Source: a bacterium (GTDB lineage Bacteria > Zhuqueibacterota > Zhuqueibacteria > Zhuqueibacterales > Geothermadaptataceae). Taken from it: a stretch of DNA of 64,000 nt. The DNA lies in the NCBI GenBank assembly GCA_024275575.1, contig JAJRYV010000081.1:1-64000 (forward strand). Reading direction: 5' to 3'. Positions 51,016 to 55,133 of this stretch are shown piece after piece (position 1 is the first letter of the stretch; each line of letters begins with the position of its first letter). The notes under the pieces were generated by a model. The model saw only the letters and a program-made list of their open reading frames with translations. It ran no database searches and was not told where the DNA came from. The position numbers were made by a program, and so were the translations under genes.

Positions 51016-52212
51016 TTATTTGACGAATTGCGCGAGATAGGCGGAAAATTCAGCCGCTGGCTGATAACCGATGGCGCGGGAAATTTCACGGCCGCGGTAA
51101 TCGAGGATAACCGTGGTGGGGTAGCGGGTAATATCGTAAATTTTGGCCAAACGCCTTTCACTGTCTCCATCGAGGCGCAAGCAGATAAAACGGTCGGAGA
51201 GACTGACGATTTCGGCGTCGCGATAGGTGCGCTCGTCCATGGTGATGCAGGGGCCGCTCCAGCGGGCATTGAATTTGATCAGCACCGGTTTGCGGGCGCG
51301 CCGCGCACGTTGTTTCGCCTTTTTCAACGAAGATAACCATTGGATTTCCCGTGCCGCCCGCGGTCGTTGCGGCTCTTCGAGATAGGGGTTATCACGGCTG
51401 AGGTCTTCCTCTTTTGAAAACTCGGGAACTCTTCGTTTTAAAAAAATGCCATGGCCGCTGCCGTCAATTTTCAAAATTTCAAAGGCATTTTCTCCGAACC
51501 AGGCAAGCTGGGTCATATCGCGAAAGTGGTTAAAATGAACCTCGGCAAAATCGGCATTTTCGCTTTGAAAAATCGCCCAGCTATCCCGGGCGTCAAAAAA
51601 ACCGTTACAGTCATCATCGATGACAATAACACTGAGATTTTGATCATCGAATTCGAAATTTCCCTGGCGCCAGCTATTACGCAGGAAATGGGCGGTGGTG
51701 GGCAGCCCCCGTACAGGTTGCCAAAAATAGAGCCGCCCCCGGATATATTCCCTGGTTCTTTCTTTTTTCGCCTGAAAATCATAGGTGAGCAGTACCGAAT
51801 CAAATTCGACGTAATGGCGGTTTCGCAAGGCGATAAACTTTCCGCGGGATAGGGGATAGTCGGCATCATTGGTCAAATCATCATCGCCATTTTCATCAAA
51901 AATGAAGCGGTTGTGATAGCGGTCTTTGGGCGAGTTTTTATCGAGGAGAAAGTAGCGTTTTTTGCCGGTATTGCCCATTTGGAAAAAGCCGGCCACCGCC
52001 TGCGAGGTCAGACGCCCAGGTAAAATCAATTGAGCATCGAGAGAATCGATGGGATCGAGATCGACGGATTTGGGCGTGACATAGGGCAAGTGACGGCGCC
52101 CATCGCCATCTTGTTGTTGTAATTCAATCTCAAATGTCCCGCGGTCGCAGGCTGAATTTATCAGAATGAAAACAAACAAACCGGTACGGGCAATATTTTT
52201 ACAGATTTTCAT
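51016..52212 (-). CDS. Thioredoxin-fold lipoprotein with WSGPC active-site variant
   Basis: N-terminal 'LFVFILINSACDRG' lipobox; C-terminal 'KPVLIKFNARWSGPCITMDERTYRDAEIVSLSDRFICLRLDGD...RYPTTVILDYRGRE'. Confidence 0.75.
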   Translation of the reverse strand: MKICKNIARTGLFVFILINSACDRGTFEIELQQQDGDGRRHLPYVTPKSVDLDPIDSLDAQLILPGRLTSQAVAGFFQMGNTGKKRYFLLDKNSPKDRYHNRFIFDENGDDDLTNDADYPLSRGKFIALRNRHYVEFDSVLLTYDFQAKKERTREYIRGRLYFWQPVRGLPTTAHFLRNSWRQGNFEFDDQNLSVIVIDDDCNGFFDARDSWAIFQSENADFAEVHFNHFRDMTQLAWFGENAFEILKIDGSGHGIFLKRRVPEFSKEEDLSRDNPYLEEPQRPRAAREIQWLSSLKKAKQRARRARKPVLIKFNARWSGPCITMDERTYRDAEIVSLSDRFICLRLDGDSERRLAKIYDITRYPTTVILDYRGREISRAIGYQPAAEFSAYLAQFVK

Positions 52213-52325: not shown

Positions 52326-53261
52326 TCATTTTCCCCGGGTTTGCTGCGGCTGCAGATCGTCATAAATCCACCGGGAAATAGCGGCGATTGCATGCTCGGC
52401 CTTTTCCGGATCGGCGATGCCTTTCGTCAGCACGACGAGAACACAAGCTCGCCGGGCGGGCGGAAAAATGATGGCGCAATCGTGGCTGATCGCTGTGATC
52501 GAGCCGGTTTTGTTCGCCACTGTAACGCTATCCGGAATGCCGGCAGGAATTTTTTTGCGATAGGCCTGACGCGACATGATTTCGAGCATCTGCGCACAAC
52601 TTTTTTCAGAAGCAGCGGCGGCGGTGGCAATCGCCGTCATGATCAGACGCATATCGCGGGCATTGGTGTAATTGCTCCAGCCCTTGCGAAAGGCTTTGAT
52701 GTCTTCAACACCGCGCAGCACCTGAATAGTATCAGCGCCCAGCGCGCGCATGGCTGCGGTGACGTTTTTTGCATCGACCAATTCGATGAGCAGGTTTGTC
52801 GCAAGGTTGCTGCTGTGAATGATCATCTCCTCGATCAATGTCAGCAGCCGTACATTTTGGCCAAGGGAATCGTAGAGCGATTCACCACCATCACGGCGCA
52901 GGTCGAGGGAAAAGCGGCTGCTGTCGACGATGCTGTAGAATTCATTTTTCACCGGAATCTTATCCGATAAAATCAGCGCTCCCGCATCGACGCGGCGAAA
53001 GAGTTCGATCATCACCGGCACTTTCATCGTGCTGGCCGCATGCATCATCGTTTTGGCATTGAAATCAAATTCCTGCTGCGTCTCAAGATCGAAAAATGAG
53101 ACTGCGATTTCCGCCTTCAGGCTATCGGCCAGTTTGGATATTTGTACGGTTAATTTTTCCGTGTTCAGCATCGGCATTTCAGGCCCTTCGCATCCACAAA
53201 TAGCGATGAAGACGATTGGCAGCATCAGCCTGAGTCCTTTACTCTGAATGCAGGTGCTCAA
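52326..53261 (-). CDS. Serine hydrolase, class A beta-lactamase-like
   Basis: 'MHAASTMKVPVMIELFRRVD' (SxxK), 'IHSSNLATNLLIELV' (SDN-like), 'VANKTGSI' (KTG). TTG start preceded by AAAGGA. Confidence 0.75.
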   Translation of the reverse strand: MSTCIQSKGLRLMLPIVFIAICGCEGPEMPMLNTEKLTVQISKLADSLKAEIAVSFFDLETQQEFDFNAKTMMHAASTMKVPVMIELFRRVDAGALILSDKIPVKNEFYSIVDSSRFSLDLRRDGGESLYDSLGQNVRLLTLIEEMIIHSSNLATNLLIELVDAKNVTAAMRALGADTIQVLRGVEDIKAFRKGWSNYTNARDMRLIMTAIATAAAASEKSCAQMLEIMSRQAYRKKIPAGIPDSVTVANKTGSITAISHDCAIIFPPARRACVLVVLTKGIADPEKAEHAIAAISRWIYDDLQPQQTRGK

Positions 53262-53263
53262 TT

Positions 53264-53485
53264 TTATCCTTTCAGCATCTTGACAATATCATTTTCCCGG
53301 GGAAAACTGCCGGTGTTTTTCTTTGAATAAATCAGATCGTTTTCATGCATGATTTCGAATACACCACCGCCGGATTCGATTAACTCGACCTCGGCACCGG
53401 GAATTTCTTTTTCGATTGCGGCTTTCAAACTGAGAGCTCTGGGTGCAAAATTTCAAACAACACAATATTCAATGGAAACATTCAT
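53264..53485 (-). CDS. SelW/Rdx family selenoprotein (UGA at 53453..53455 decoded as Sec)
   Basis: Reverse strand: M N V S I E Y C V V [UGA] N F A P R A L S L K A A I E K E I P G A E V E L I E S G G G V F E I M H E N D L I Y S K K N T G S F P R E N D I V K M L K G stop. CxxU at the position of the Rdx CxxC/U redox motif; sits 9 nt after the ABM gene stop and abuts the next gene. Confidence 0.85.
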
Positions 53486-53494
53486 TTTTTCTCC

Positions 53495-53827
53495 TCAACC
53501 CTTTGATTTGGTAAAAAAACGATTGTGTTCAACTTTACAAATATGCAGTGAAAAAGCATCGTACCATGCCGTTTTGCCTTTTGCCTGCGCTATTTTATGG
53601 CGCGGATTGTTTTTCCAGCGCAGGATATCTTCTTCCGATTGCCAGTAGGAAACGGTTATCCCGGCGGCGGCGCTGCGCACGGATTCAGCGCCGAGGAAAC
53701 CCGACTGCTTTTCCGCCAGGGCAATCATTTCATCCGCCATTTTTCCATAATCTGCACTTTTTTTCAAATTCAGTTTGGAAGTAAAAATTACCGCGTAATA
53801 AGGCGGCTGAGGAACGTCTGTAAACAT
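53495..53827 (-). CDS. Antibiotic biosynthesis monooxygenase (ABM) family protein
   Basis: 'YYAVIFTSKL...YGKMADEMIALAEKQSGFLGAESVRSAAAGITVSYWQSEEDILRWKNNPRHKIAQAKGKTAWYDAFSLHICKVEH'. Confidence 0.8.
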   Translation of the reverse strand: MFTDVPQPPYYAVIFTSKLNLKKSADYGKMADEMIALAEKQSGFLGAESVRSAAAGITVSYWQSEEDILRWKNNPRHKIAQAKGKTAWYDAFSLHICKVEHNRFFTKSKG

Positions 53828-53830
53828 TGA

Positions 53831-54949
53831 TTAGCCAATCAAGTTTTCCGGATTTAACGGCTGCAAGTCCTCGGGTACGAAAAAGCCGTCTTTGCGAATA
53901 AGCACATCGTCGAAATAAATCTCACCGCCGCCGCAATCCGGGGTTTGCCGCATCACCATGTCCCAGTGGACTTTGGAGCGGTTGCCGTTGTCCGCATCTT
54001 CGTAGGCCTGCCCCGGGGTAAAATGAAATGATCCGGCAATTTTTTCATCGAAGAGAATATCGAGCATTGGCCGCGTTACGTGGGGGTTAAAACCAATGGC
54101 AAATTCGCCGATGAAACGCGCGCCTTCGTCGGTGTCGAGAATCTCGTTGAGTTTTTCGTTTTTGTCACCCGTCGCAGCGATGATTTTGCCGCCTTTAAAT
54201 TCCAGGCGGATATCGGCAAATGCGGTGCCCTCGTAAATCGTTGGTGTATTATATTGAATGACGCCGTTGACGCTGTTGCGGACAGGTGCGGTAAAGCATT
54301 CGCCATCTGGGATATTGTGCTCGCCGCCACAGGCAATAGCCGGGATGTCTTTGATGCTGAACGAGATATCCGTGCCGGGCCCGGTGAGACGAACTTTGTC
54401 GGTGCGGTTCATCCATGAAACGAGCGCCTTGCTGTGTTCGGCCATTTTGCCATAGTCGAGGGTACAGACATCGAAATAAAAATCCTCGAATGCTTCAGTG
54501 CTCATGCCGGCCTGCTGGGCGAAGGAGTGCGAGGGGTAGCGCAAGACAACCCATTTTGTATTCTTTACACGCATATCAAAATGCACCGGTTTGACATAGT
54601 AGCTTTTGTAAAAGCCCATTTGCGGCGTCGGTACATCGGACATTTCCATGATATTCTGTCCGCCTCGGATACCGATATAAGCCTGCATGTGCTGCATGCG
54701 GTCGACATCCATTTTCCCCCAGTTTTTAAAGCCGTCTTCAGGTAGATTTTTCACGAGAGAGCGGGTTATTTCATTGTTTTTGATGGTGACAAAAGGCACG
54801 CCGCCTTTATTTTTAACGAGTTCGATGAGCTCGACCACGAGCTGGTGCGGTGTATCGATCGCTTCGATGAGGATATTTTCACCTTTCTGCAGGCGTGTTG
54901 AATGGTTGATGAGCACTTCAGCCAATTGACGATGTCGTGGGTCTTTCAT
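53831..54949 (-). CDS. Aminopeptidase, M29 family
   Basis: 'LAEVLINHSTRLQKGENILIEA', 'IACGGEHNIPDGECFTAPVRNSVNGVIQYNTPTIYEG', 'KVHWDMVMRQTPDCGGGEIYFDDVLIRKDGFFV'. Confidence 0.8.
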   Translation of the reverse strand: MKDPRHRQLAEVLINHSTRLQKGENILIEAIDTPHQLVVELIELVKNKGGVPFVTIKNNEITRSLVKNLPEDGFKNWGKMDVDRMQHMQAYIGIRGGQNIMEMSDVPTPQMGFYKSYYVKPVHFDMRVKNTKWVVLRYPSHSFAQQAGMSTEAFEDFYFDVCTLDYGKMAEHSKALVSWMNRTDKVRLTGPGTDISFSIKDIPAIACGGEHNIPDGECFTAPVRNSVNGVIQYNTPTIYEGTAFADIRLEFKGGKIIAATGDKNEKLNEILDTDEGARFIGEFAIGFNPHVTRPMLDILFDEKIAGSFHFTPGQAYEDADNGNRSKVHWDMVMRQTPDCGGGEIYFDDVLIRKDGFFVPEDLQPLNPENLIG

Positions 54950-55133
54950 GATGCCCCTCAAGGGTTTATTGAATCGGTTTGTACAAATTTTTAGAATTGC
55001 AAATATAGGGAAAGCAGGTTTGAATGTCAAGCTACACGTAATTGCTGATAAAAACTTGCAACTCTATGGGAAATAGATTATATTCGGCATTCTTTTATTC
55101 GGACCAAACGCAATAAATTATTTAAGTAACGAT

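Follow-up and report, generated by a model that had tools for sequence, protein, structure and literature searches.

A UGA-interrupted frame in a compact gene row

The window analysed here, a stretch of 64,000 nucleotides of bacterial DNA, carries on its minus strand a row of genes for an M29-type metallopeptidase, an ABM-type monooxygenase-like protein, a small protein of the SelW/Rdx type and a beta-lactamase-like serine hydrolase, with gaps of 3, 9 and 2 nt between successive genes (Table 1). The SelW gene is missing from the open reading frame listing of the window. Its frame runs from an ATG at 53485 to a TAA stop at 53266–53264 and holds a single in-frame UGA, codon 11, which occupies the second redox position in a CxxU motif (C8-V-V-U11). 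With this codon read as selenocysteine (Sec), the product is MNVSIEYCVV-U-NFAPRALSLKAAIEKEIPGAEVELIESGGGVFEIMHENDLIYSKKNTGSFPRENDIVKMLKG, which starts MNVSIEYCVVUNF and ends KMLKG. A preliminary description of the locus had given a 73-residue frame with this start and one UGA, separated by 9 nt from the ABM stop and by 2 nt from a downstream TTG; on re-reading, the frame proved exact and both spacings correct. The TTG start of the downstream gene is putative.

Table 1. Features of the SelW locus, in coordinates of the window.
Feature	Position	Strand	Basis
Candidate SelW/Rdx selenoprotein gene, 73 aa	53264..53485	-	Frame and Pfam Rdx; frame kept in 48 loci
In-frame UGA, read as putative selenocysteine, residue 11 of the CVVU motif	53453..53455	-	TGA conserved in relatives
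Putative bSECIS-type apical hairpin	53421..53437	-	Covariation and wobble/codon constraint; weak single-sequence energy
GGAG ribosome-binding motif, 5 nt 5′ of the SelW ATG	53491..53494	-	Sequence
ABM-type monooxygenase-like protein, 110 aa, upstream neighbour	53495..53827	-	Pfam ABM, 8.2e-07
M29-type metallopeptidase, recurrent upstream neighbour	53831..55030	-	Pfam PF02073, 2.2e-51
Beta-lactamase2-type serine hydrolase, lipoprotein-like N-terminus, recurrent downstream neighbour	52326..53261	-	Pfam PF13354, 2.8e-53

Long frames that the window yields under UGA = Sec were collected and four of them were read; no second hidden selenoprotein emerged. In these four the UGA codons fall close to the start, ahead of where the protein appears to begin.

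Family and predicted fold of the product

For the family and structure searches, the UGA was translated as a residue. Pfam Rdx (PF10262) matches with E = 8e-19 and 68.1 bits against a cut-off of 22.6, covering profile positions 1–72 of 74, and the NCBIfam model CXXU_selWTH matches at 1.2e-15. The best NCBIfam model, NF041051 (SelT/SelW/SelH family (seleno)protein, Campylobacterota type), aligns along the full length of the protein at 7.2e-25; its 87.0 bits are one bit short of the curated cut-off of 88, and the model is named for another lineage.

An AlphaFold model made from 19 sequences, the protein's own and related ones, has a pLDDT of 96.9 and places the CxxU pair at the end of predicted strand E2-8 in a thioredoxin-like fold. 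The top structure match in the PDB is the SelW-related 2fa8 (TM 0.92); 2obk, 2ojl and 2p0g are also matched, and MIEN1 (2ljk, TM 0.80) and mouse SelW (2npb, TM 0.72) appear lower down. A sequence search of the PDB agrees with the structure search and matches several of the same Rdx proteins. The Rdx/SelW membership first proposed from the letters of the gene is thus borne out by the Pfam match and by the SelW-related folds, and the product would be a small, probably cytosolic, thioredoxin-fold redox protein of this family.

Conservation of the UGA codon

A search of the window's own genome and of 59 relatives, 60 genomes in all, found the SelW gene in 38. Across the phylum, 43 of 82 genomes carry an Rdx gene, and TGA occupies this codon in all 43; it is also present in five other contigs, labelled Hydrogenedentota, Planctomycetota, Deltaproteobacteria, KSB1 and unnamed bacterium. 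Every locus with readable sequence has TGA (48/48), with the frame conserved on both sides of it. Relatives that keep the frame on both sides do so at roughly 37–63% protein identity, and even in genome G051, where an N gap has removed the N-terminal part, the TGA and the downstream frame can still be read.

These data bear directly on the simplest alternative, that the UGA is a true stop codon or a sequencing error and that the locus either is a pseudogene or encodes a 10-codon peptide with dead sequence behind it. Genome-wide reassignment of UGA is ruled out, since UGA ends ordinary genes in the window, the ABM gene among them, and a lone frame of 73 codons could decay; both points are what a genuine stop would lead one to expect. 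Random error or decay would not, however, be shared, and the same UGA is found in 48 loci with the frame kept on either side. We consider this alternative practically untenable and retain the reading of the UGA as a Sec codon.

A cysteine codon (TGT or TGC) at the aligned position in relatives had been suggested as a check. None was found among the Rdx genes of the 82 phylum genomes, every one of which is of the UGA form. Cys homologues of SelW-like proteins do exist elsewhere, with 56 in marine data (PMC2398784). A scarcity of such homologues, few or none in Sec-using organisms, has already been noted for SelW-like proteins (PMC1794560), and the Sec-only pattern in the phylum is therefore expected. 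One genome (G050) has an extra SelW-like copy (L076, contig C144) that keeps the UGA and meets a TAA after 47 codons; it is possibly a decaying paralogue or an assembly error.

A constrained hairpin downstream of the UGA

In the window, the sequence 3′ of the UGA can form a hairpin with six stem positions, one of them a C-A mismatch common to family f1 sequences, and an AGUUU loop at 53431–53427 that begins 21 nt after the UGA. The hairpin was assessed in a gap-free alignment of 43 sequences extending from the UGA to +47, in which columns 19–24 pair with columns 30–35 around the AGUUU loop and the loop G is invariant. Paired cells make up 82.9% of the stem as against 68.6% in shuffled alignments, and cells with compensatory double changes number 42 as against 15.5. 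The covariation score is 0.403, compared with 0.146 for shuffles and 0.05–0.16 for versions of the stem slid along the alignment. None of 500 shuffles reached the observed double-change count or covariation score, although the aligned sequences are related and not independent, so that shuffle counts are not to be read as probabilities. Compensatory change occurs in four of the six stem pairs, and wobble column 21 pairs with column 33 as CG, UA, AU and GC. RNAalifold recovers the same stem core on its own.

Codon choice points in the same direction. Codon +8, when it encodes Ser, is AGU in 34 of 34 cases, whereas AGU makes up 9% of Ser codons in neighbouring long frames; when it encodes Arg or Gly it is AGG, CGU or GGU, which keeps the loop G. 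A final C at codon +7 and a final UG at codon +9 are each found in 47 of 48 loci, and most other wobble positions around the hairpin are free to vary. Taken at the level of compared sequences, these patterns indicate that the hairpin is constrained as RNA. A hairpin folded by hand in the preliminary description had the right position and the right loop, AGUUU, and now has the backing of covariation and codon constraint.

The element is weak in the window's own genome. When the UGA region was folded as a single sequence, no signal was obtained (z = +0.90), and the argument for the hairpin is for this reason a comparative one throughout. Its energy ranges from -3.2 kcal/mol (26 nt) to -4.4 kcal/mol (48 nt) and fails the search filter of the published bSECIS model, set at -7.5 kcal/mol or lower (PMC13188914), so that bSECISearch-type filters may overlook it. 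Relatives that pass the filter include L040 (-10.7) and L057 (-11.1), and the upper-stem pairing of the bSECIS consensus is seen across the relatives; a subset of bSECIS elements is known that does not fit the model (PMC13188914). A scan of the window with Rfam at gathering thresholds returned no matches.

Selenocysteine genes in the genome and the phylum

The genome from which the window comes (4.96 Mb in 144 contigs, 97.7% complete) contains a tRNA-Sec of 65.9 bits with anticodon tca (UCA), located on contig C138 (L023, 2511–2606, minus strand). The same contig carries selB (4.9e-103), a 639 aa open frame. A selA gene is present at 7.5e-161, and selD at 4.5e-102 lies on contig C75 (L019, 1396–2445, minus strand). 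An in-frame UGA also occurs within selD, in an STCGU motif (CGU), with a strong GGUC-loop hairpin directly downstream; candidate selenoprotein genes that contain UGA thus number at least two in this genome. The preliminary description had proposed a search for selA, selB, selD and tRNA-Sec, and all are present. With selA, selB, selC and selD all found, and with relatives that carry UGA at the aligned position and a conserved frame beyond it, its reading of UGA as Sec is supported. In passages of a survey of KSB1 (PMC9012183), selA, selB and selD are reported, and selC is not.

Among the seven SelW-bearing relatives that have no selA above the cut-off, five have a tRNA-Sec above it. Across the phylum, selA occurs in 36 of 43 genomes with SelW and in 27 of 39 without it; this difference is not significant (Fisher p = 0.19), because selA is common in the phylum anyway.

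One relative appears to go against the pattern. G064 (98% complete) has a UGA-type SelW with an intact hairpin (L077, contig C9), and no selA, selB or tRNA-Sec was detected in it above the cut-off. A UGA gene in a genome of this kind is what would be predicted if the codon were read through by a near-cognate tRNA, for Trp or Cys, with no part played by the Sec machinery. Near-cognate readthrough is nevertheless very improbable as an account of the family. The UGA stands exactly where SelW proteins carry Sec or Cys as a redox residue, the hairpin that follows it is constrained at the RNA level, and the window's genome has all the Sec genes together with a second UGA-containing protein, SelD. 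The two other sampled genomes of G064's own family, G063 and G065, have selA, and loss of the Sec genes of G064 in a draft gap or a misbinned contig is consequently the likeliest explanation; it is possible instead that SelW is a relic gene there.

Neighbouring genes

Neighbourhoods were compared by tblastn of the window's neighbours against SelW flanks of about 1.5 kb, which are sometimes cut by contig ends. The ABM gene adjoins SelW in three loci only, those of the window's genome and two genomes of its genus, and ABM–SelW was rejected as a conserved unit. With the window counted, 22 loci have the M29-type peptidase upstream of SelW and 18 have the beta-lactamase-like protein downstream of it, and the recurrent wider arrangement consists of these two genes on either side of SelW. 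Spacing in the window suggests an operon. The operon of ABM, SelW and serine hydrolase put forward in the preliminary description accordingly holds for its tight spacing in the window and for the recurrent beta-lactamase-like gene, but its ABM member is confined to the genus.

The beta-lactamase-like protein scores 111 bits against the 200 of the NCBIfam class A cut-off, and at this distance below the cut-off the name of a resistance enzyme is unwarranted. By eye, it keeps STMK, SSN and KTG motifs. Two genes downstream of SelW, the window encodes a 398 aa protein (51016–52212, minus strand) with what looks by eye like a thioredoxin-like C-terminal stretch (FNARWSGPC); relatives of this protein are also found downstream of SelW in L026, L027 and L031.

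The recurrence of the two neighbours raises the question of whether SelW acts as a unit with the M29-type peptidase and the beta-lactamase-like lipoprotein, in a dedicated redox or peptide-processing operon to which ABM was added in the genus. Such a unit would add to the selenoprotein explanation and would not replace it. The gaps of a few nucleotides in the window, the 22 loci with M29 and the 18 with the beta-lactamase-like gene are in its favour. Many SelW loci have other neighbours, however, intergenic distances are often >100 nt, and genes can inherit a common position without having a function in common. On balance we regard the unit as unlikely, and a stronger version, in which the Sec-only SelW of the phylum would be a dedicated redox partner or regulator of the adjacent peptidase and lipoprotein, as more doubtful still. 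If such a partnership did exist, it would make the physiological partner of a bacterial SelW accessible to genetics; as it stands, the M29-type gene that recurs beside SelW gives a modest lead to the function of bacterial SelW.

Discussion

We conclude, with a probability of roughly 96%, that the gene encodes a SelW-type selenoprotein whose UGA-11 would be decoded as Sec under the guidance of the downstream hairpin. Family membership, conservation of the UGA, the machinery genes and RNA-level constraint on the hairpin can be read from the DNA; from them we infer actual Sec insertion and redox chemistry. SelB carrying Sec-tRNA-Sec(UCA) would bind the AGUUU-loop hairpin and insert Sec at UGA-11; hairpin-guided insertion by SelB is an established bacterial pathway (PMC9312934). 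Cys8 and Sec11, where strand 1 ends, would then make up the CxxU redox pair, which probably cycles between a selenenylsulfide and a selenol-thiol state.

The gene provides a clear selenocysteine target for a phylum-level lineage of the Calditrichota/KSB1 type. A search of the available literature found no paper joining Calditrichaeota with selenocysteine, and the passages of the KSB1 survey that bear on this (PMC9012183) name no selenoprotein target. Standard gene calling should miss the Rdx gene across the phylum because of its in-frame UGA. The hairpin further shows that covariation and codon constraint can still pick out bSECIS elements whose folding is too weak to pass the usual energy cut-off.

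SelW-like selenoproteins have been described in bacteria since 2005, when they were reported from the Sargasso Sea (PMC1088965). In the Global Ocean Sampling data they outnumbered every other prokaryotic selenoprotein family, with 427 sequences and a CxxU motif (PMC2398784), unannotated members were found in Epsilonproteobacteria (PMC4607533), and a 2026 review lists SELENOW-like proteins with PF10262 and CxxU (PMC13188914). The window gene shares with these proteins (PMC1088965, PMC2398784, PMC13188914) the Rdx fold, a predicted Sec at the second CxxU position and a UGA followed by a bSECIS hairpin. Like other SELENOW-like genes, which annotation often misses (PMC4607533), it was unlisted. 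It differs from them in host lineage, neighbours and exact sequence, and its hairpin, with CAGUUUG as a conserved loop segment, is weak in the genome of the window. The product has the same fold as the solved Rdx proteins from Agrobacterium (2fa8) and Pseudomonas (2obk), mouse SelW (2npb) and MIEN1 (2ljk), with TM values of 0.72–0.92, but is shorter at 73 aa, and no Cys form of its gene was seen in the phylum. On these grounds we can say with confidence that the gene is a well-supported addition to the SELENOW-like family known since 2005, and not a new kind of selenoprotein.
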